Translations under genes and position numbers: made by a program
The notes under the pieces: generated by a model
Told to the model about the DNA's origin: nothing
Databases searched by the model: none
The model's input: the letters and a program-made list of their open reading frames with translations, nothing else
In this document: piece by piece, positions 11,460 through 26,298 of the stretch
How the letters are laid out: each line of letters starts with the position of its first letter
How positions within the stretch are numbered: position 1 is the stretch's first letter
From: Phycisphaerae bacterium
GTDB lineage: Bacteria > Planctomycetota > Phycisphaerae > Sedimentisphaerales > SM23-30
Assembly: GCA_016342495.1 (NCBI GenBank)
Contig: JAEIOG010000060.1
Location: forward strand, 1 to 32,553
Length of the DNA stretch: 32,553 bases
Direction of reading: 5' to 3'

Positions 11460-12293
11460 TCATATTTTAAAACTATTGCGATATTCACGCGGGCTCAGCT
11501 TTTTTTTTCGGCGAAACTGACGATTGAAATTTGAAAGATTTTCAAAACCGCATTCCAGGCAAATTGCCGTAACGGGCTTATCTGTATCGCTTAATAATTC
11601 ACAAGCCTTACTGATCCGAATATTATTTAGATATGTCACAAATGTCAAACCAGTGGTCTTCTTGAAAAACTGGCAGAAGTTTGATGTACTCATATGGGCA
11701 ATGTTAGCAACTTGTTGTTGGGTTATTTTTTTATAAAAGTTGTTATTGATAAAATTGAAAACATTTTCGATACGCAACTGATCCTTTTTCAGTATATGTT
11801 CTGTGAAGATCTGGGTGGATATGAAAGATTTTTCCCTGGTTTCCGAAAGCTTGTGTAATATATCCAGAAAAGCGATTAGCTGTGGCAGGCCTTTCAGGTC
11901 AGGCAGGGTTTCGATTTGTTTAACTAGTTGGCCCGATTGAAACTGAAGTCCCCATTTTGCCTGGTCAAAAAGTTCGCGTATAACTTTTAATTCAGGATGA
12001 TCAAGAAAATCCTTACCTAAAAAGAAACGATCAAAATGAACCACAATCGCGGTATGATTTTGTCGACTGGATTCTGATTTCCACGCATGGGCAAGATTTG
12101 GCCCGGTAAGCACAAGCTCGCCATCACTATAGCTGGCTACATTATCTCCAATGTGCCTTGTGCCGCTGCTGTTCAATATCAGCACAAGCTCATATTCAGG
12201 ATGGTAGTGCCAGTTGAAGTCGAATTCCTTATCATCACGCAAAAAACAATGAAATGATGACAGGTCAGGTTTTATAACTTTTTCAAAATTCAT
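11460..12293 (-). CDS. AraC-family transcriptional regulator with cupin sensor
   Basis: A 277-residue regulator. The N-terminal half is a cupin-type ligand pocket, with NWHYHPEYELVLIL supplying H29, H31 and E33, followed by GDNVASYSDGELVLTGPNLAHAW. The C-terminal ~100 residues (about 175-275) hold two helix-turn-helix motifs, including QQQVANIAHMSTSNFCQFFKK and the AraC signature ending LSPREYRNSF. Proteins of this type usually sense a sugar or related small molecule and activate the neighbouring operon. Here the neighbour, read divergently 193 bases away, is a zinc-type methyltransferase followed by a Gfo/Idh oxidoreductase. Regulation of those genes is therefore likely but inferred. Confidence 0.88.
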   Translation of the reverse strand: MNFEKVIKPDLSSFHCFLRDDKEFDFNWHYHPEYELVLILNSSGTRHIGDNVASYSDGELVLTGPNLAHAWKSESSRQNHTAIVVHFDRFFLGKDFLDHPELKVIRELFDQAKWGLQFQSGQLVKQIETLPDLKGLPQLIAFLDILHKLSETREKSFISTQIFTEHILKKDQLRIENVFNFINNNFYKKITQQQVANIAHMSTSNFCQFFKKTTGLTFVTYLNNIRISKACELLSDTDKPVTAICLECGFENLSNFNRQFRRKKKLSPREYRNSFKI

Positions 12294-12407
12294 TATAGGA
12301 CCTCTAAATTATGCTATATTTAATCATTCTAAGCAAATATTGTATATTTTCAATAAAATAGTATCGGTTTATTGTAATATAAGCGTAGTGTAGGCTCTGG
12401 TTTGCAG

Positions 12408-12447
12408 TATAATAACTATGTCTTCTTCGAGATTATTCCAAAATCTC
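12408..12447 (+). promoter_or_regulatory. Possible promoter and leader hairpin before the methyltransferase
   Basis: A perfect TATAAT at 12408-12413 has only a poor -35 box, as expected for an activator-dependent promoter. A hairpin GAGATT (12429-12434) / AATCTC (12442-12447) follows in the leader. Confidence 0.3.
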
Positions 12448-12486
12448 ACGTAAATCATTAGGTCAAAACATAAGCAGGGTCTGCCA

Positions 12487-13485
12487 ATGAATAGCTATGA
12501 AAGATATATCGCAATGGTCAAAGGCCAAAAGGTCGATTTTGTCCCACGGATTCCTATATTGATGCATTTCGCTGCCGACCATATTAATGCTTCTTATGCA
12601 GATTTTGCCAGTGACCATAAAGTGATGTGCAAGGCAGGCATCGAATTAGCTAATGACTTTGGAATTGACCAGCTGGATATTTTAAGCGATCCTTATCGTG
12701 AGACCACAGCCTGGGGCGGCAACATCACTTATGTTCAGGATACCACACCTCGTTGCAGCTCACCTTTACATGACAATAAGGATTTTTCCCTGTTGGCAAA
12801 ACCCGATATTTACCAGTCGGAACGCTTGAAAAATGCCCTGGATGGCATAGACCTGTATAAAGAATCTGGCTATAAGAAATATTCGATTACTGGCTGGGTC
12901 GAAGGCCCTGCCGCCGAAGCTGCCGACCTCAGGGGTGTTCAAAATTTCCTGATGGATTTAATGCTGGATGAATCTTTTGCATGTGAGCTGATGGACAGGG
13001 CATTAATTTTAGCGATCAACTTTGCCAAAGCCCAGATCGCCCATGGCTGTGATACTATTGGCATTGGCGATGCCATTGCCAGCCAGGTTGGACCTGATTT
13101 ATATGAACGATTAATTCTCCCGCGCGAAAAAATTCTTATCGATGCTGTCCAGGCCGCCGGCGGTCTGGCTCGTCTACATATCTGCGGCAATGTTACCAAG
13201 CTCCTCCCGGCTATCGCCAGTCTTGAAATAGATATTATGGATTGCGACTGGATGGTTGATATGGTCCAGGCCAGAGAGATTCTAGGTTCAAAGGTAACAC
13301 TTACCGGCAATCTTGACCCGGTAAGTGATATTATGCGTTCGACACCAGCAAAAATACATGATAGTTTCAAACAGCTTTATGCCCAGATCGGTAACCCGTA
13401 TTTTGTCAATGGCGGCTGTGAAATCCCCAGGGGTACTCCGGTTGAAAATCTTAAGGCTGTTTGTGAACCAATTCCGGCACAATAA
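12487..13485 (+). CDS. UroD-superfamily zinc methyltransferase (MtaA/CmuA-like)
   Basis: A TIM-barrel protein of 332 residues from the uroporphyrinogen decarboxylase superfamily. It carries the zinc motif of corrinoid methyltransferases, H231-x-C233 (LHICGN) with C311 (NGGCEIPRGTPVEN), which true HemE lacks. It also lacks the HemE N-terminal signature. This points to methyl transfer between a methylated corrinoid protein and a thiol or other acceptor, rather than heme synthesis. No corrinoid protein or partner methyltransferase is adjacent. AAGCAGGG six bases before ATG 12487 supports the start. The gene lies 21 bases upstream of the Gfo/Idh gene and is probably cotranscribed with it under the divergent AraC regulator. 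The methyl donor is unknown. Confidence 0.8.
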   Translation: MNSYERYIAMVKGQKVDFVPRIPILMHFAADHINASYADFASDHKVMCKAGIELANDFGIDQLDILSDPYRETTAWGGNITYVQDTTPRCSSPLHDNKDFSLLAKPDIYQSERLKNALDGIDLYKESGYKKYSITGWVEGPAAEAADLRGVQNFLMDLMLDESFACELMDRALILAINFAKAQIAHGCDTIGIGDAIASQVGPDLYERLILPREKILIDAVQAAGGLARLHICGNVTKLLPAIASLEIDIMDCDWMVDMVQAREILGSKVTLTGNLDPVSDIMRSTPAKIHDSFKQLYAQIGNPYFVNGGCEIPRGTPVENLKAVCEPIPAQ

Positions 13486-13506
13486 AATCAAAAGAAAGGT
13501 TTAAAA

Positions 13507-14859
13507 ATGTCAAATAACAACCCAATCAACAGAAGGCAGTTTGTCAAAAAAGTCAGCACAGCGGCAGCAGTTTTCAGTATTGTTCCTCGTCATGTGCTCG
13601 GTGGAGATAATTTTACCGCTCCCAGTGAAAAGCTCAATGTCGCCGGTGTTGGTATTGGTGGCATGGGTGCATCAAATGTCAATAATTGCAAAGGCGAAAA
13701 TATCTACGCTCTCTGCGATGTGCATCATAATCATGCGGCAAAAGTTTTCAATGCTTATCCAAAAGCCAAAAAATATGTTGACTACCGTGAAATGCTTGCA
13801 AAAGAAAAAGATATCGACGCTGTCATAATCGCTACCCCTGACCATACCCATGCCGTCATCGCGATGGCCGCGATAAAAGCCGGCAAGCATGTTTATGTCC
13901 AGAAACCCATGACCCATAATGTCTATGAAACCCGAAAACTCACCGAAGCGGCAAAAGCTGCTGGCGTGGTAACTCAAATGGGTATACAAGGCCATTCTTC
14001 TAACGAAATACGCATTGTCCGGGAATGGATCGAAGATGGAGCTATTGGCGATGTCCGAGAAATCCATTCCTGGTGCTCGCTAACATATTATCCCTGGGGC
14101 TATGCTTACTGGAGTCCTTCGCATTCGGCGCGTCCGACTGAAACACCAGCGGTTCCTGATGGCCTTGACTGGGATCTCTGGCTCGGTCCTGCCCCGGTTC
14201 GTCCGTATCATCGTTGCTATCATCCTGGTTCATGGCGGGCATGGTGGGATTTCGGCAGCGGAATGATGGCCGATCGTGGCTGCCATACCCTTGACCCTGC
14301 TTACTGGATTCTAAAACTTGGCCAACCTATATCGGTTGAAGCTAACCGCACTGATATTAATAATGAGACTCATCCAGTTGCCGCTATCGTAAACTTTAAA
14401 TTCCCGGCCCGCGGCAAAATGCCTCCTGTTACTTTAACCTGGTATGATGGCTTGCGACCACCACTGCCCGATGAACTTACCGATGGCTGGATTCTGGGAT
14501 CAAGTGAAGGTGGATCGCTTTTTGTTGGTAATAAAGCAAAACTCATGCATGGCGTTTATGGCGAAAGCCCCAGACTCCTTCCAGAAACAACCATGAAATC
14601 ATATAAAAAACCTGCTAAAACCATACCAAGAGTCAATGGCACCCATGAGCAAAACTGGCTCGATGCTATAAAAAATGGGACCAGAGCCAATGCCGACTTT
14701 GAATATTCCGGGCCGTTTACCGAAATGATTCATCTGGGTAATATTGCGATAAAACTGGGCCGCAAGCTCTACTGGAATGCTGAGAAAATGGAATTCACCA
14801 ATGACCCCGAAGCTACAAAACTTTTAACCAGAGATTATCGCCAGGGTTGGTCACTTTAA
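13507..14859 (+). CDS. Tat-exported Gfo/Idh/MocA-family oxidoreductase
   Basis: A 450-residue NAD(P)-dependent sugar or polyol oxidoreductase of the type abundant in planctomycetes. The N-terminus is a twin-arginine signal, R9-R10-Q-F-V-K, with hydrophobic TAAAVFSIV. A Rossmann fold follows (GVGIGGMGASN), then the IATPDHTHA block, VYVQKPMTHN with the catalytic-type Lys, and GCHTLDPAYWIL in the C-terminal alpha/beta domain. GFO/Idh enzymes often carry tightly bound cofactor, which fits folded export by Tat. AAGAAAGG precedes ATG 13507. It follows the methyltransferase by 21 bases, so the pair probably form an operon. The substrate is unknown; processing of methylated or oxidised sugars is a guess from context. 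Confidence 0.88.
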   Translation: MSNNNPINRRQFVKKVSTAAAVFSIVPRHVLGGDNFTAPSEKLNVAGVGIGGMGASNVNNCKGENIYALCDVHHNHAAKVFNAYPKAKKYVDYREMLAKEKDIDAVIIATPDHTHAVIAMAAIKAGKHVYVQKPMTHNVYETRKLTEAAKAAGVVTQMGIQGHSSNEIRIVREWIEDGAIGDVREIHSWCSLTYYPWGYAYWSPSHSARPTETPAVPDGLDWDLWLGPAPVRPYHRCYHPGSWRAWWDFGSGMMADRGCHTLDPAYWILKLGQPISVEANRTDINNETHPVAAIVNFKFPARGKMPPVTLTWYDGLRPPLPDELTDGWILGSSEGGSLFVGNKAKLMHGVYGESPRLLPETTMKSYKKPAKTIPRVNGTHEQNWLDAIKNGTRANADFEYSGPFTEMIHLGNIAIKLGRKLYWNAEKMEFTNDPEATKLLTRDYRQGWSL

Positions 14860-14935: not shown

Positions 14936-16744
14936 TTACAATGACAATACATATTCAGTTAGATCATTAATTTGTTTTTCAGTCAGGCCATTTGTATGCC
15001 CATGCTTATCATCATTATTATATTTGCTGAAAATTTCTTTGATGCTTGCAGCGCGGCCATCATATAAAAAAGGGCCCGTTCGCCAGACTTCTATAAGTGT
15101 TGGCGTATCGAAACGGAAATCCTTTTCCATGCCAATTCCTGTCCCTATATCATGACGTTTCATATCAGTAAACAGTGGCCCGCTATGGCATCTGCCGCAT
15201 CCGGTAAATGAAAATATTTCCTTACCGCGAATGGCCGATTCTGATAGTTTCCCATTCACCAGATATGGACTCGACAGTGGTTTAAGTGATTTTAGATACT
15301 CGTCAATCGCCTGGGCGTCTTCTTCTGGTCGACTGGCAAATTGTATAAATCTCAAACCTGCCCGTACAGCCGTTTGGGCATCGGGTCTTATCCCTGAAAC
15401 CATTACCGGTGGCGTTTGATGAGCATAGAGCATGCTCTTAGTGCTCTTAGGATTACCAATGCCGTCATTGAGCAAGTCCCAGTTTAAGCCATGTGTCCGC
15501 GCATCGGGATGGCAACTGGCACAGCTTTGCCATTGCTGAAAACATAAGGCCGCATCATTGAAAAACATCTCTCCGCGACGCTGGATAGTCACAGGCTTTT
15601 CCTTGCCAAGGGTAAATGATTGAACAACGGAATCATTAAGTGAGATTTCAACTTTTGCAAGTGAGCCACTGAAATATTCACTTGCATAAGCATTGTTACC
15701 TATGATTTCTAAATGTCTTGGCCCATTGCCTTTGAGTTTATGACGTTTTTTGATACCAGCCAAAAAACTCAGGTCATAAGGAACATTCTCTTTTGCCTGG
15801 TCAAGTTTCTTATGCATAGCGATTCGATCAATAACCGTTATTTCATGCGTACCTGATGATGTCACACACAAAAACTTACCATCGCCAGTGCATCCAACAG
15901 AAAATGGATTAGCGCATCCCAAATCAATATCGTCAAGCAAAACCGTATTGTAAAGTTGCTGATTTTCGATATCGATAATGCTGACGGCATTGGTGTTTTG
16001 CCACCCGCGTTCCAGTTGAGTCGTTGGCACCTGGTATCTTGCCAGTATATGAGTTACATACCCCCATTGCCCATCTGGACTCAGGCATATATCTTTAAGG
16101 TCAGTTACGCCGTTGAGCATCTCAATCGAATTAACCAGCTCATTTTTCTTAGTATCAATAATAGAAATGTTCGCCGCGATATGTTCTCTGTCCGATGAGC
16201 CATCCGGCATCTGATTTATCACAAACAGCCAGCGACCATCATTTGTCAAAACAGAATCAACCGGCTCCCGCACAACCGCTATGGTCTTAACCACCTTTTT
16301 GGTCTCCAGATCAATCACCGAAATATTATTGCTGAATCGATTGCACACATACATGACCTTGCCATCGGCACTGATTGTTGGCGATACCGGGGTATGATTT
16401 AATCTGACTTGCCACAACACCTCACCGGTCTCAATCTCAATGGCCATCATCCGCCCATCAGCTGCCAACTCCGTCACATAAAGCACCTTGCCATCTTTTG
16501 ACAAAGCCAACCCACCCGGTGAGATTTCCAGATATATATTATTTTTAACTTCGTCAGTCTTAGTGTCAAACATCGTGACACACCTGGCGGTGCTCTGGGC
16601 TATATACAATAATCCATTCTGGTCGTCAGCCATCGCTTGTGGCGAAAGATAATCATACTCATAAGCTTTTCCTGATTGTTCTGCTATGACATTATTTGTT
16701 ATCACAAAGCAAAATATTATTGCCAGCCATCTAAATGATCTCAT
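14936..16744 (-). CDS. YVTN-propeller diheme cytochrome (MauG/peroxidase-like)
   Basis: A 602-residue periplasmic protein. A signal peptide (1-21) is followed by a YVTN-type beta propeller (about 30-390) made of repeats such as DGKVMYVCNRFSNNISVID, and by a C-terminal cytochrome domain of the di-heme peroxidase/MauG type. That domain has two c-heme sites, C408-A-S-C411-H412 and C516-G-R-C519-H520, plus a TGPFLYDGRA block common in this family. It likely transfers electrons or oxidises a substrate carried by the propeller. AAGGA precedes the start. It lies 25 bases after the triheme HzsA-like gene on the same strand, so the two cytochromes probably work together in the periplasm. The substrate is unknown. 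Confidence 0.85.
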   Translation of the reverse strand: MRSFRWLAIIFCFVITNNVIAEQSGKAYEYDYLSPQAMADDQNGLLYIAQSTARCVTMFDTKTDEVKNNIYLEISPGGLALSKDGKVLYVTELAADGRMMAIEIETGEVLWQVRLNHTPVSPTISADGKVMYVCNRFSNNISVIDLETKKVVKTIAVVREPVDSVLTNDGRWLFVINQMPDGSSDREHIAANISIIDTKKNELVNSIEMLNGVTDLKDICLSPDGQWGYVTHILARYQVPTTQLERGWQNTNAVSIIDIENQQLYNTVLLDDIDLGCANPFSVGCTGDGKFLCVTSSGTHEITVIDRIAMHKKLDQAKENVPYDLSFLAGIKKRHKLKGNGPRHLEIIGNNAYASEYFSGSLAKVEISLNDSVVQSFTLGKEKPVTIQRRGEMFFNDAALCFQQWQSCASCHPDARTHGLNWDLLNDGIGNPKSTKSMLYAHQTPPVMVSGIRPDAQTAVRAGLRFIQFASRPEEDAQAIDEYLKSLKPLSSPYLVNGKLSESAIRGKEIFSFTGCGRCHSGPLFTDMKRHDIGTGIGMEKDFRFDTPTLIEVWRTGPFLYDGRAASIKEIFSKYNNDDKHGHTNGLTEKQINDLTEYVLSL

Positions 16745-16769
16745 GATATTTCCTTACTCAATCGCTGAA

Positions 16770-19679
16770 TTATTTCTTGTCATGCATTGTCACGGGATAA
16801 CGACTTTCATTTGCCCCTTTCGGGTCATACCACAAACTCTGCCAGTACAATTCATCCAGTTTATATACATTTACCCCATCTTTATCCAGATCAAATTCAC
16901 TCGGCAATACACCATATCTTTTCATCTCTCGAATATAGGCATCTCTTGGCCGGAAATTAGCCATGTCAAAACGTGTCACTTCTTCGAGCTTGTCTTTGCC
17001 GGCCTGAACCATGCCCAATATCGCCTGATAATCCTTATCCGTTTTATCTTTAAATACAATCGGATGCTCTTTTTTATCTTCGGTATCAATGGCATAGCCA
17101 CCTGCGGTTTTTGCCAGTGGTGCCAAAAGCATCAGCGACTTCTCCGGATGACTAAGATTAAACACCGTATGCCTCGACAGCATCAATGCCTTATCGTTCC
17201 AGTCTGGCCGCCAGAAACTGATACCTCTTTCATCGGAAAGTTTCGTTGGTAATCGTAAATGATCTTTATGGCATTCACTGCACCTGTTCTCAATTGCAGC
17301 AGCAGCCTTAATCGACTCTGGCCAGGAATAGTCTGCATTAATCCTCTGATAATTTTCCTGATAGCCACCAATCATCCCCGTGCCAAGTGCCGCATAAGTT
17401 CCTGGATACACCGCCGCCGACTCAATCCAGAATCTAATCTTTTTAATTTCATTTTCTGACAAGTTCACATCATGATGTTTGTTCAATACTTTTTTCATTA
17501 ATGGACTTGGATAAGCCCCCAATGAATAAGGTGGGAAATTACTTACCGGATTATTTCTCCCATCAATAAATTGCCTGTGCATTGTCAAAGTCATATAGCT
17601 ATGGCTGAACATCGGCCCATGATCCCCCGCCAAAAGTACCTTGGCATTGCGATTGTCCGGGTTATGGCATTTAACACAATGCTTATCCAGTATCGGCTGT
17701 ATATCCCTCGGAAAATCAAACAACTGCGGTATCCCGGCAATCGGCGTGGGCTTATTTGCCTGCTTCATCGCCGCCATCGGTGCCATCGCCGATACCCGGT
17801 CAGGCGTTGTGGTTCGTTCTTCATGGCATCCGATACAGCTGCTTAGTTCACCGGGAGCGACTGATGTAAAACTCTGCATCCTTTTAACTGCATTATCATC
17901 TTTATCCAAAGCTATAAAAAATACCGATCGATTCGCCGGCAGCTCCATATAAGCCGAACCATCTGCCTCTACCGGCACCGTCCCAAGAATTCTTTCAAGT
18001 GTAAAAGTCCCGCCATAGGTCAGCGGGTCCATTCCCCCGGTATAATTAATCGGCTTGGGCAGGGTTTCCATAATCAGCAGCTTTTTCACTGTCCCTTTTT
18101 CAACCTCTCCCATATTGCGCCCAATATAAACATTAGTCAACAGTAGTTTACCGGTCGCTTCTTCGAGATTTATCCGGTCAGGAATAATCGCTTCCCGTTG
18201 GCGTTTCATAATCGGTCTGGGCTCGTGGCATTGATAACCCAATTTCGACGATAGTAAATTTATCTTATACAGAACAATTGCGCTGCCATCACTACCCATT
18301 AGCTGAATAGTTCGGTCATTTGCCACGATAAATGCATCATCGGACAGCGGATAAGGATCGCGAAATCCCCATTGAGAATTAATGATTTTTTTCGCCCCAA
18401 TATTATCCGGCCCATATTTATCCGTTACCAAAGCCACATGTCCATTATGCTCGGTAGCTCCATGGCCCGGCGAATCTATCATCAGCACATCGCCAGTGCC
18501 CGGTATTGGTTTTGCATCAATGTAAACGCTACCCGGATGAAAATTACCATAATATACCGTTTGATTAGTCCCATCAGGATTAGTTGTCCACAAGTGATGA
18601 TAATGTACCTGGCTCCTGTCGATATATTCCCAGCGTGTATATAATATCCGGCCATCCGGCAAAACCCATGGCGTATTATCATGTTCGATATTAGCCGATA
18701 TCTGATGAATATTCTGCCCATCACCATCGCAGCGATAGAGAACCGCCACCTGTGTCAACCAGCAGTTCACCCATCGGTTTCCGCGACTGGATACAAACAT
18801 TATCTTGCCATCGGGCAGATACGTTGGCTCAAAATCATCATAAGGCCCATCAGTCAACTGCTTTAACCCGCTGCCATCAATATTGATTTCCCAAAGATGG
18901 AAATTGTTTTCATCACCTTTACGATATGAAAATAATATCTTTTTCGCATCATAATGAACGATAGGGTCTCTTACCGACCCTGCCGCATCATCAAGCAATA
19001 TCGTTAGTTCTTCCGTGTCCAAATTGTATTTGCAAAGCTGCCCCCCAGGCTTATGAGGTTTGCGGTTGGCGTCTTCTGCATAATAACCAAAATTTGCATA
19101 CCAGTGCGGATCATTTCCAACCCGGCGCTGGGCGAAAACTATTTCTTTACATCCGAGCTGTTCTCGCCGTTTTTTTATCGCCTGGCGTTTGCGAAGTTCG
19201 ATTTGTTTGAAATATCCTTGCAGCTTCTCATTTATTTCCTTACTGGCAAATGATACTTCCCATATCGAATAAAGTCCGTGTGGTCCTTTTTTTATACAGT
19301 TAATCCTGACATAGCGACCGTTGGCATTTATCCCTTTATGTTCAATCGCACCTTCTTTGCCATTGGTTTCCGTAGCGATCACTTGCCAGTCCGCATGATC
19401 AGCAGAAATTGCAATTTCATATTCCGCGGCAAAAGCAACTTCCCATTTAATTACCATATCTTTAACAGGCAGGACTTCGCCAAAGTCAACTTCCAGGTAG
19501 CTTTTTACCTCTTCTGATTTACTGGCCCAGCGCGTACCGCCATCACCATCAAATGAATTTTGTGCCTGAAATCCCCTATCATATTCACTTGATGAATTAA
19601 AAGTGATTTCGCCAGCATAACAAAGAGAATTTGAAATCCCAATCAGCCTCAAAATTAATATCGCCAACTTTACCTTCAT
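16770..19679 (-). CDS. Discoidin plus HzsA-like triheme c-type protein
   Basis: A 969-residue exported protein. A signal peptide (1-22) is followed by an F5/8 type C (discoidin) domain (about 23-145) likely to bind glycan. A six- or seven-bladed TolB-like propeller (about 180-480) resembles the middle domain of hydrazine synthase alpha subunit. Three c-heme motifs follow: C615-I-G-C618-H, C668-V-K-C671-H and C800-S-E-C803-H. Non-anammox planctomycetes carry many such paralogues, so hydrazine synthesis is not implied. The start is ATG 19679 (or ATG 19682), where GGAG lies seven bases upstream and the signal peptide begins. A longer frame to 19775 has no ribosome binding site. The neighbouring diheme cytochrome is 25 bases downstream. 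Confidence 0.85.
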   Translation of the reverse strand: MKVKLAILILRLIGISNSLCYAGEITFNSSSEYDRGFQAQNSFDGDGGTRWASKSEEVKSYLEVDFGEVLPVKDMVIKWEVAFAAEYEIAISADHADWQVIATETNGKEGAIEHKGINANGRYVRINCIKKGPHGLYSIWEVSFASKEINEKLQGYFKQIELRKRQAIKKRREQLGCKEIVFAQRRVGNDPHWYANFGYYAEDANRKPHKPGGQLCKYNLDTEELTILLDDAAGSVRDPIVHYDAKKILFSYRKGDENNFHLWEINIDGSGLKQLTDGPYDDFEPTYLPDGKIMFVSSRGNRWVNCWLTQVAVLYRCDGDGQNIHQISANIEHDNTPWVLPDGRILYTRWEYIDRSQVHYHHLWTTNPDGTNQTVYYGNFHPGSVYIDAKPIPGTGDVLMIDSPGHGATEHNGHVALVTDKYGPDNIGAKKIINSQWGFRDPYPLSDDAFIVANDRTIQLMGSDGSAIVLYKINLLSSKLGYQCHEPRPIMKRQREAIIPDRINLEEATGKLLLTNVYIGRNMGEVEKGTVKKLLIMETLPKPINYTGGMDPLTYGGTFTLERILGTVPVEADGSAYMELPANRSVFFIALDKDDNAVKRMQSFTSVAPGELSSCIGCHEERTTTPDRVSAMAPMAAMKQANKPTPIAGIPQLFDFPRDIQPILDKHCVKCHNPDNRNAKVLLAGDHGPMFSHSYMTLTMHRQFIDGRNNPVSNFPPYSLGAYPSPLMKKVLNKHHDVNLSENEIKKIRFWIESAAVYPGTYAALGTGMIGGYQENYQRINADYSWPESIKAAAAIENRCSECHKDHLRLPTKLSDERGISFWRPDWNDKALMLSRHTVFNLSHPEKSLMLLAPLAKTAGGYAIDTEDKKEHPIVFKDKTDKDYQAILGMVQAGKDKLEEVTRFDMANFRPRDAYIREMKRYGVLPSEFDLDKDGVNVYKLDELYWQSLWYDPKGANESRYPVTMHDKK

Positions 19680-19781
19680 CATCTCACTCCAAAATTTTAT
19701 AACTAACTCAAACTGACCTTGCCAGAAAAAACTTGAATGGTTTTTGAAATAGCATTTACCGAAGGTAAATACCACAACTTT

Positions 19782-20477
19782 TCACTTACTTTTTAACGCT
19801 TTCCTTATCTCTTTGGCCACCTGCTCGGCAATAATTTTATACCCTTCAGGTTTATAATGCACATTCCCCGGCCCGATAAAATATTCTTTATCCAGTTTAC
19901 TGGTTACTTCCCATATATCATTGATAGCTACGCCATTCCTTTTCATTACCGCTTCTGCTGCCTTATTATATTTAATATCATCACCAACAAATCTCCCCGC
20001 TTCACCTTCGGGCACCATCGAGATCGTCCCCCATATCAATTTGGCATTCGTCTGCTTCAGTCTTGCCACCAGCTTTTCCAGATTCGCGGCATATTCTTCC
20101 GGGGTTGCTGTTATCTTGCCATTTACTTTGTCGCGATTACCTTGAACTTTTGATTCAGGATGACGATAACATAAATCCCAAAGCCCCCAGTTAAAATGAA
20201 TCACATCCCATTTATGATCCCCCAGCCATTTATCAATATTTTCCACTCCCCGCTCTGTTGGCCCGCAATTAACAGAATACCCATCCAGGTCCCCCGGCCG
20301 CGCAACGATAGCTTCATCTTTGAGCATCTCCTTGACGAAGGGCTTATATCCAATTGAAATCGAATCACCAATAATCAAAACCTTCGCCGGCCCCACCCGC
20401 TTGACCGTCTTATTACCACAGCCAACCAAACAAAAACTCAAAACCAAAACCATCATAAAACCAAAAATCTTTTTCAT
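19782..20477 (-). CDS. SGNH/GDSL hydrolase-type lipoprotein
   Basis: A 231-residue envelope hydrolase-like lipoprotein. The N-terminal signal ends in lipobox LVGC20. Block I is IIGDSISIGY with S39 as nucleophile; FNWGLWD follows as the Gly/Asn block; and NVHYKPEGY contains H207. The residue three before that His is Gly204, where the catalytic Asp of DxxH normally sits, so the triad may be incomplete or the Asp supplied from elsewhere. Relatives deacetylate or de-esterify sugars. The start is ATG 20477 after GGAG; a longer frame to 20489 is less likely. The gene is upstream of the HzsA-like gene on the same strand, about 100 bases away. Confidence 0.82.
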   Translation of the reverse strand: MKKIFGFMMVLVLSFCLVGCGNKTVKRVGPAKVLIIGDSISIGYKPFVKEMLKDEAIVARPGDLDGYSVNCGPTERGVENIDKWLGDHKWDVIHFNWGLWDLCYRHPESKVQGNRDKVNGKITATPEEYAANLEKLVARLKQTNAKLIWGTISMVPEGEAGRFVGDDIKYNKAAEAVMKRNGVAINDIWEVTSKLDKEYFIGPGNVHYKPEGYKIIAEQVAKEIRKALKSK

Positions 20478-20496
20478 AATTATCTCCATCGGTACG

Positions 20497-25392: not shown

Positions 25393-26298
25393 ATGGGTTT
25401 ATTTGATAAGATTAAAGGTTTATTTGGTTCTGGTAGTTCTGGTGGGGTGTCGGGACTGACGATTGACGATTTGGCACAGCGGTTGGATATGCCAGTTGAA
25501 CGGCTTGAGGGTGTGGAAATATCATATCATAGTTTTACGGTTCCAAAATCTAATGGCCATCAAAGGCGGATAACTGCTCCTGATGATAAATTAAAACAGG
25601 TGCAACGTGCGATATTGAAGCGGCTGCTGAATAAGTTGGCGGTTCATCCTAATGCCACCGGTTTTCGCAAAGGATATTCAGTGGTTTCAAATGCGCGGCT
25701 GCATGTCGGGTCAGAGGTTATTGTAAAGCTGGATATCCGTAATTTTTTTGAGAGCACGAAAATTAATAGGGTGAACAAATATTTTAAGTTTATTGGCTGG
25801 GATAGAAAAACGGCAAATTTATTGACGGAGTTGACAACATATAAGGGCGGGCTGCCACAGGGGGCGCCGACGAGTTCGGCTTTGTCGAATTTATTGAATT
25901 ATAAGCTGGATAGCTCGCTTACTACGTTGGCGAAAAAAAAAGGGGCTCGCTATAGCAGGTATGCTGATGATATGACTTTTTCGCTGGATGGTTCTGATTC
26001 CAAGGTGATAAATTCGATTATCTGGGGAGCGGAATCTGCATTGCATGATTTGGGGTATCGGCTGAATAATCGCAAGACTAAAGTGATACGCAAGCATCGC
26101 CAACAGCGGGTGACGGGTTTGGTAGTTAATGAGAAGGTGGCGTTGCCGAGAAAAACGCGGAAGCTGATTCGGGCGATAGAGCATAGCCAACAAAATGGAA
26201 GGCCGAGTACGCATAGCGCAGATCAGCTTCGCTCGTTGAAAGCATATCAGGCGATGGTTGAAAAGCAGGGGGAAGATGGTGAATTGGATGAGGGTTGA
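25393..26298 (+). CDS. Retron-type reverse transcriptase
   Basis: A 301-residue RT that would use the upstream RNA as primer and template to make branched msDNA. Visible: the N-terminal RT0-like segment; the retron region X motif N100-A-R-L-H104; the RT2 motif with catalytic D114 (VKLDIRNFF); GLPQGAPTS (153-161); the active site Y190-A-D-D193; and the retron region Y motif V240-T-G242 leading into the thumb. NAxxH plus VTG distinguishes retrons from group II intron and DGR RTs. The first 12 residues (MGLFDKIKGLFG) could form an amphipathic helix. AGGGA lies upstream of ATG 25393. No fused effector domain is present. Codon choice looks richer in TTG and GCG than hisS, by eye. Confidence 0.93.
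   Translation: MGLFDKIKGLFGSGSSGGVSGLTIDDLAQRLDMPVERLEGVEISYHSFTVPKSNGHQRRITAPDDKLKQVQRAILKRLLNKLAVHPNATGFRKGYSVVSNARLHVGSEVIVKLDIRNFFESTKINRVNKYFKFIGWDRKTANLLTELTTYKGGLPQGAPTSSALSNLLNYKLDSSLTTLAKKKGARYSRYADDMTFSLDGSDSKVINSIIWGAESALHDLGYRLNNRKTKVIRKHRQQRVTGLVVNEKVALPRKTRKLIRAIEHSQQNGRPSTHSADQLRSLKAYQAMVEKQGEDGELDEG

Follow-up and report, generated by a model that had tools for sequence, protein, structure and literature searches.

Two adjacent cytochrome genes in a Phycisphaerae bacterium raise the question of whether genes that resemble those of hydrazine synthase (HZS) point to anammox or to some other chemistry. Within the window analysed here (the whole stretch of 32,553 nucleotides of contig JAEIOG010000060.1), they lie on the minus strand and encode a triheme protein resembling the alpha subunit of HZS (HzsA) and a diheme protein composed of a propeller and a cytochrome half. 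By sequence comparison, the pair comprises homologues of all three HZS subunits, the second protein being a homologue of the HzsB-HzsC (betagamma) fusion, hereafter HzsBC. Hydrazine synthesis by this pair is almost certainly to be dismissed. We rather favour an alpha-betagamma cytochrome complex that is exported and belongs to the HZS superfamily but is distinct from HZS; it would carry out redox chemistry in the periplasm or at the surface and is probably associated with sugars. Co-located homologues of HzsA and fused HzsBC have already been published outside anammox (PMC10732223; PMC12758564). These papers, as well as PMC12607021 and PMC5615132, are cited here from the available portions of their texts, which give no reaction for the non-anammox relatives; the matter bears on where hydrazine synthase came from.

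Homology of the gene pair to hydrazine synthase

Among the sequences of PDB entries, the HzsA-like protein matched the alpha subunit of Kuenenia stuttgartiensis HZS (5C2V; E-value 7.8e-18), and the second protein matched both its beta (1.6e-25) and gamma (2.8e-25) subunits; as sequence matches, these are not chance. The best NCBIfam match of the second protein was the HzsB-HzsC fusion model NF052342 (E 9.8e-38, 129.8 bits), and the separate HzsB (9e-29) and HzsC (2.7e-24) models each matched it as well. The preliminary description of this DNA had taken it for a propeller-MauG-type protein and had stated that no other hydrazine genes were present. This statement has to be withdrawn: the protein is an HzsB-HzsC fusion homologue, and the pair therefore spans all three HZS subunits. 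The curated NCBIfam cutoffs for HZS were not reached (alpha, 90.5 of 800 bits; betagamma, 129.8 of 1250 bits).

An AlphaFold model of the HzsA-like protein, built from 36 sequences (mean predicted local distance difference test score, pLDDT, 76.7), had 5C2V alpha as its best PDB match with VIA-align (Z 35.4, root mean square deviation 2.9, 552 aligned residues); the entries ranked after it (TolB, Z 27.7) span the propeller only. The alignment with 5C2V alpha stops at residue 776 of the model. The HzsBC model was built from 5 sequences (mean pLDDT 67.3); its propeller half compared with 5C2V beta at a template modelling (TM) score of 0.86 by target length, and its diheme half is unreliable, no distal-pocket geometry being drawn from it.

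The main features of the pair are the following (aa, amino acids; ORF, open reading frame):

16770..19679, minus strand: HzsA-like (alpha) gene, triheme, 969 aa, signal peptide by eye, MKVKLAILILRLIGISNSLCYA (CxxCH count; Pfam, NCBIfam and PDB matches; model)
19257..19598, minus strand: discoidin (F5_F8_type_C) domain, residues 60-173 in the 1001-aa ORF (PF00754, E 2.7e-18)
17820..18095, minus strand: HZS alpha middle domain, residues 561-652 in the 1001-aa ORF (PF18582, E 4.1e-20)
17823..17837, minus strand: haem alphaI motif CIGCH, without Tyr at the alpha591 position (alignment)
17664..17678, minus strand: haem alphaII motif CVKCH, a candidate distal His being kept in a later motif, HHDV (alignment)
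17268..17282, minus strand: CSECH, the third haem motif, within a C-terminal extension past the part aligned with HZS alpha (alignment, model)
14936..16744, minus strand: HzsB-HzsC fusion homologue (betagamma), diheme, 602 aa, signal peptide by eye, MRSFRWLAIIFCFVITNNVIA (NF052342; PDB 5C2V beta and gamma)
15602..16621, minus strand: propeller half, HzsB-like (NCBIfam and PDB matches; model against 5C2V_B)
15986..16045, minus strand: insertion loop of the propeller (aa 234-253), which aligns to the HZS beta loop close to the alpha-gamma tunnel (alignment)
15509..15523, minus strand: haem gammaI motif CASCH, with His412 as the proximal ligand by homology (alignment)
15386..15400, minus strand: V449 to R453, V449 standing at the position of gammaHis144 and of the MauG/CCP inter-haem Trp (alignment)
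15185..15199, minus strand: haem gammaII motif CGRCH (alignment)

In the mechanical call, the HzsA-like ORF begins with the GTG at 19775; the start that we favour is the ATG at 19679, with a GGAG 7 bases ahead of it, and a tandem ATG at 19682 is a possible alternative. Exactly 25 bases (16745-16769) separate this gene from that of HzsBC, whose ATG is preceded by AAGGA. Both proteins begin with a Sec-type signal sequence as judged by eye. The HzsA-like protein further contains the discoidin domain, a propeller of the TolB type, the HZS alpha middle domain and three CxxCH motifs, and HzsBC contains the propeller followed by the diheme cytochrome, which makes five c-haem motifs across the pair. 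The nearest solved structures to the discoidin part are discoidin domains of glucanases and chitosanases. Coordinates, gap and domain content agree with the preliminary description, which had left the strand unstated.

As in HZS, the haem motifs alphaI, alphaII, gammaI and gammaII are present, together with a candidate alphaII distal His and the propeller insertion loop, and beta and gamma are fused as in HzsBC of Scalindua. Unlike HZS, the window HzsA adds a discoidin domain and a third haem and precedes HzsBC, whereas betagamma comes first in anammox bacteria (PMC12758564).

Active-site residues and the anammox question

For residue comparisons, the HzsBC alignment omits hits below 400 bits and the partial duplicate loci L001, L006, L008, L013 and L017, and the HzsA alignment omits hits below 500 bits and loci L001 and L003-L006. 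Rows were sorted by eye as window-like, other or anammox on the basis of score and architecture, ahead of the tree. One identical pair (L091, L142) is included among the 93 window-like HzsBC rows, and the 82 window-like HzsA rows count twice two genes of the genome that holds the window (L015/L019, L018/L020). Both HzsBC haem motifs were kept in 93/93 window-like rows, as the preliminary description had required of a real pair, and at least two CxxCH occurred in 111/111 HzsBC rows. The alphaI and alphaII motifs were present in all 82 window-like HzsA rows. The candidate alphaII distal His motif was found in 68/82 with a pattern loosened after its first form had proved too strict (38/82 with the first form, 37/82 in the strict alignment column).

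In 5C2V, Tyr591 is the ligand at alphaI, with His587 and Cys303 on zinc; at gammaI, a third thioether links Cys165, Asp168 lies near the iron, and His144 occupies the place of the Trp of bacterial cytochrome c peroxidase (CCP) and MauG (PMC12758564; PMC12607021). Tyr591, Cys303, gammaHis144, gammaCys165 and gammaAsp168 are all missing from the window pair. Tyr at alpha591 was found in 4/4 anammox rows and 1/82 window-like HzsA rows (the window reads CIGCHEERTT), and Cys at alpha303 in 2/4 and 0/82, respectively. The gamma144 position is His in 4/4 anammox rows, Trp in 14/14 other Planctomycetota homologues and, in the 93 window-like rows, Ile (35), Ser (24), Val (14, V449 in the window), Ala (14) or another residue (6, including one Trp). 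GammaCys165 and Asp168, present in 4/4 anammox rows, have no equivalents in the window; none of the 93 window-like rows has Cys at window column 462, and nine, the window not among them, have one elsewhere within span 440-500.

These residues bear on whether the pair could be a divergent form of HZS, which would make the organism a new anammox bacterium, a hypothesis already in print for Phycisphaerae UBA1845 metagenome-assembled genomes (MAGs; PMC10732223). Three HZS subunit homologues do stand side by side, with HzsB and HzsC fused as in Scalindua, and the genome encodes one octahaem cytochrome of the HAO family (460 aa, L106:132-1511, minus strand, contig C196). However, this protein, the single PF13447 match in the genome (95 % complete), reached only 84.2 of 900 bits against the hydrazine dehydrogenase model, the HZS scores lie far under their cutoffs, and five paralogous HzsBC are present. 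Because the alphaI Tyr and gamma Cys165, Asp168 and His144 are missing and no hydrazine dehydrogenase was found at cutoff, we reject the anammox reading as extremely improbable, and the earlier assertion that nothing here indicates anammox stands. Matches to hzsABC-like genes alone are thus insufficient for calling anammox.

On contig C108 of the same genome, a paralogous pair (L102:6316-10708, minus strand) shows the anammox-like order, HzsBC then HzsA, and its HzsA has a Tyr at the alpha591 position, four residues beyond the CxxCH of alphaI. Among 19 relatives of this HzsA, that position is Tyr in one (L163) and His in 12; the Tyr being unconserved, it was treated as chance and not as an anammox-type signal. 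An anammox-type HzsB match with an in-frame TGA was also noted (L110; G374:C22:85364-86500).

The gamma144 position likewise weighs on a reading in which the gamma half would be MauG- or CCP-like and use H2O2, as a peroxidase or as a protein-maturation catalyst, HzsA being its substrate or electron donor. The C-terminal half of HzsBC belongs to this diheme family, with a CCP_MauG Pfam match (E 1.5e-8) and structure matches of the gamma half that include CCP (6.4e-5) and, weakly, MauG (0.043). Yet the inter-haem Trp, kept by the 14 other Planctomycetota homologues, is missing in 92/93 window-like rows, and the score against the MauG model TIGR03791 is far under its cutoff (37.1 of 443.85 bits), which makes this reading rather unlikely. 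Near the gammaI motif, R453 is invariant (93/93) and H442 is His in 84/93 window-like rows, the four anammox rows having Thr and Arg there. As both the Trp typical of MauG and the His typical of HZS are lost and another invariant residue lies near, our comparison suggests a reaction unlike either.

In the propeller half of window-like HzsBC, aa 234-253 form the best conserved 20-residue stretch, with R236, P240, Q243, R246, G247, W248 and T251 each conserved in at least 95 % of rows. This stretch aligns with the HZS beta loop, which approaches the alpha-gamma tunnel (PMC12607021).

Linkage and co-occurrence of HzsA and HzsBC

Linkage was scanned on genome contigs for the top 80 among at least 538 relatives, and the fractions below describe these closest 80 loci; by record name, 37 belong to Planctomycetota and 12 to Hydrogenedentota, and nine are unassignable. 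HzsA was found on the same strand within 1 kb upstream of HzsBC in 39/80 loci, within 1.5 kb downstream in four and in the same ORF in one, so that 44/80 have it either fused or close by on that strand. One gene separates HzsA from HzsBC in L031, L044 and L095. Single-ORF fusions of HzsA and HzsBC occur in a Spirochaetes MAG (L082, 1416 aa) and in a Planctomycetota genome (L132, 1770 aa). In the genome of the window, which has 5 HzsBC and 13 HzsA, an HzsA adjoins four of the five HzsBC, an arrangement with a chance of about 1e-8 under random placement.

Co-occurrence was assessed at a genome presence threshold for HzsA of E 1e-20. HzsA was present in 14/21 genomes with HzsBC (the 19 other matches of a 199-genome Planctomycetota search, plus G287 and G388) versus 0/20 without (20 listed among the 179 genomes lacking a match), giving a Fisher value of 4.4e-6 with kinship ignored. 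In the first 16 and 15 genomes of the two sets, HzsA was found in 13 and 0, and the five added to each contributed 1 and 0. HzsA was also found in 10/11 genomes of the 199-genome search (that of the window excluded) with an HzsBC above 500 bits, and for this reason we keep a physical complex of HzsA and HzsBC as probable.

Several observations weigh against such a complex. HzsA was absent in 22/80 loci despite at least 2.5 kb of upstream DNA, and elsewhere in the locus in 3/80, 11/80 being undecidable. In the genome of the window, the HzsBC on C183 has no HzsA neighbour and HzsA is often alone, with 13 for 5 HzsBC; no HzsBC was found in the flanks of about 1.5 kb of the 19 relatives of the C108 HzsA. 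Seven of the 21 genomes with HzsBC lack HzsA (G187, G146, G061, G052, G108, G121 and G138); among them, G187 alone has an HzsBC above 500 bits in the 199-genome search. G138 carries an anammox-type HzsBC yet no HzsA match, so the profile also misses distant HzsA. The loop at 234-253 is equally conserved in HzsBC without a neighbouring HzsA, and so is no proof of alpha contact; it may serve HzsBC itself. Finally, the HzsBC model is poor in its diheme half.

The many HzsA and HzsBC genes found alone would also fit mere neighbours drawn from two separately expanded families, with independent roles. The two fusions and the difference in co-occurrence (14/21 vs 0/20) argue otherwise, and we regard independent roles as quite unlikely. 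The linkage anticipated in the preliminary description is recurrent (44/80 loci), but it is not universal (22/80 without HzsA). Its suggestion of paired redox proteins working together is probably right, in view of the loci with HzsA near or fused, the single-ORF fusions and the co-occurrence among genomes.

Distribution and variants of the pair

The strict HzsBC search matched 20/199 Planctomycetota genomes, that of the window having the most copies, five. In a tree of 111 HzsBC sequences (midpoint root), the window pairs with L138, from the same-order genome G287 (support 100); a branch of support 86 separates the window-like rows from those sorted as anammox or other. Three CxxCH were counted in 14/82 window-like HzsA rows, twelve of which form one clade (support 100). 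Discoidin domain, third haem and HzsBC occur together in three cases, the window, L138 and L094, as sought with a profile grown from the window domain, which diverged discoidin domains may escape.

Among the 12 HzsA paralogues of the genome, 10 were scanned for added domains: FGE-sulfatase (5), NPCBM (3), PA14 (1), dockerin (1) and a ribose isomerase-like domain (1) were found, some in combination, and two proteins had none. NPCBM, PA14 or dockerin was present on 5/10, which, together with the discoidin domains of the window, L138 and L094, speaks for a carbohydrate link. HzsA-like proteins fused to FGE-sulfatase, some with NPCBM or PA14, were observed in L104 (9070-12969, minus strand), L010, L011, L012, L014 and L036. 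The paralogue at L019:175-3549 (minus strand) carries a LacAB_rpiB isomerase domain in one frame, which could be a real fusion. A gene for a TlpA-like thioredoxin lies between two HzsA genes upstream of HzsBC in L026 (6554-7363, plus strand) and L094 (6005-6757, plus strand), and perhaps serves haem attachment.

A Rid/chorismatase-like gene (PF01042) directly follows HzsBC in 25/80 loci, including L031, L034 and L064; three of the 25 were scanned against Pfam, TIGR04444 remained below cutoff, and the L031 protein has no signal sequence by eye. None of the five HzsBC loci in the genome of the window has this gene. In a literature search for HZS homologues with a Rid/chorismatase or discoidin partner, ‘hydrazine synthase’ was absent among the matches listed.

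Comparison with published homologues

Haegglund et al. 2025 (PMC12758564) described four clades, I-IV, in which a fused diheme betagamma stands beside an HzsA homologue, as in the window; as a further likeness, no FG-GAP match was found in the scanned window neighbours. Their residue discussion covers clades I-III, where gamma144 is Trp, whereas the window group has mostly Ile, Ser, Val or Ala. Clade I is reported to lack the alphaII distal His, for which the window keeps a candidate. The tree sets the window group apart from both the anammox rows and the clade I architecture (ten-haem betagamma). In two loci, L130 and L134, the HzsBC homologue has ten haems and an HzsA with two haems lies close by, which matches the published clade I architecture; together with L128 and L133, they share a Cys column that may be the reported clade I cysteine and in which the 93 window-like rows have no Cys. 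Anaerohalosphaera lusitana falls in clade IV and is reported with two such clusters (PMC12758564); two were also retrieved from G287, the genome of the nearest row L138. The window group may be clade IV, in a tree that holds no named clade IV sequence.

The Phycisphaerae UBA1845 MAGs (Dalcin Martins 2023, PMC10732223) carry the same class of gene pair, with HzsA immediately upstream. They were proposed as possible novel anammox bacteria, a reading that the residues found here argue against for the window pair; UBA1845 sequences were not identified among the rows compared. Planctomycete PSCyt cytochromes also combine a haem protein with a glycan-binding-type domain in bacteria of the Planctomycetes-Verrucomicrobia-Chlamydiae (PVC) group (PMC5615132), but no PSCyt or PSD Pfam domain (names from PMC5615132) was found in the window HzsA at E 0.01.

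Relative to the available texts of PMC12758564 and PMC10732223, four points are new: the third haem (one 12-row clade, three members with discoidin), the five HzsBC in one genome, the lack of an inter-haem Trp or His with an invariant Arg453 and a conserved propeller loop, and the Rid/chorismatase-like gene after HzsBC.

A proposed function

In the mechanism that we propose, HzsA and HzsBC would associate in the manner of the alpha and betagamma subunits of HZS. GammaI would be a CCP/MauG-type site, with His412 as proximal ligand, turning over a small oxidant or N-oxide; electrons would enter at gammaII and feed gammaI one at a time, and a small ligand would be reduced or activated there. The product may travel past the conserved propeller loop, which would guard the passage to alphaI, for a second step at that site, alphaII and the added third haem carrying electrons in or out. 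The discoidin domain, for which carbohydrate binding is plausible, would tether the complex to glycan. The role, which is the weakest step, would be redox chemistry in the periplasm or at the surface, connected with the use of polysaccharides. A link to carbohydrates seems somewhat probable, reductive or peroxidatic chemistry at gammaI is put forward tentatively, and any specific chemistry could at best be given the same tentative standing.

The extra haem of the window variant and the glycan-binding-type domains would equally suit an electron-transfer module, i.e. a five-haem surface wire leading from polysaccharide oxidation to an outside acceptor, with a non-catalytic gammaI; a similar role has been proposed for porin-linked Verrucomicrobia cytochromes bearing carbohydrate-binding modules (PMC5615132). 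Against this, R453 and H442, two conserved residues that lie close to the gammaI motif without binding haem as part of it, and the conserved loop suggest catalysis, and a wire alone appears unlikely.

A broader and improbable idea would be that a family of alpha-betagamma tunnel enzymes with two sites extends across the PVC group and that HZS arose within it as a specialised branch. The window branch would retain the plan of gammaI, propeller loop and alphaI and run another two-step reaction at glycan surfaces, via a reactive intermediate, with Arg453 as its own invariant pocket residue and, in the window variant, a fifth haem. If this were true, the Rid/chorismatase-like neighbour would handle a reactive imine- or chorismate-like pathway compound. 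The branch recurs in PVC bacteria and related MAGs, often linked to HzsA and sometimes fused to it, with a key gamma position unlike that of HZS and of CCP/MauG.

Other genes in the window

Upstream of the pair lies one further gene read in the same direction:

19782..20489, minus strand: SGNH/GDSL lipoprotein gene, 102 bases before the HzsA start (PF13472, E 9.2e-10)

It was considered as a conserved third partner and rejected, none being found beside the same-architecture relatives L138 and L094. A window-wide Rfam scan gave no family above its gathering score, and no tRNA was found in the window. Promoter-like patterns numbered 33 (shuffle mean 24.7, standard deviation 5.4) and terminator-like patterns 11 (shuffle mean 5.7, standard deviation 2.4); no claim is built on this excess. 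At 25393-26298 (plus strand), a reverse transcriptase is near the retron St85 family (227.5 bits of a cutoff of 235); the Rfam scan, the one search made, returned nothing for an msr-msd. Convergent with the HzsA-HzsBC pair, positions 11460-14859 encode an AraC regulator, an MtaA/CmuA-type methyltransferase and a Gfo/Idh/MocA protein, the last approaching the model of the BT_2158 glycoside 3-dehydrogenase with 499 of 750 bits.

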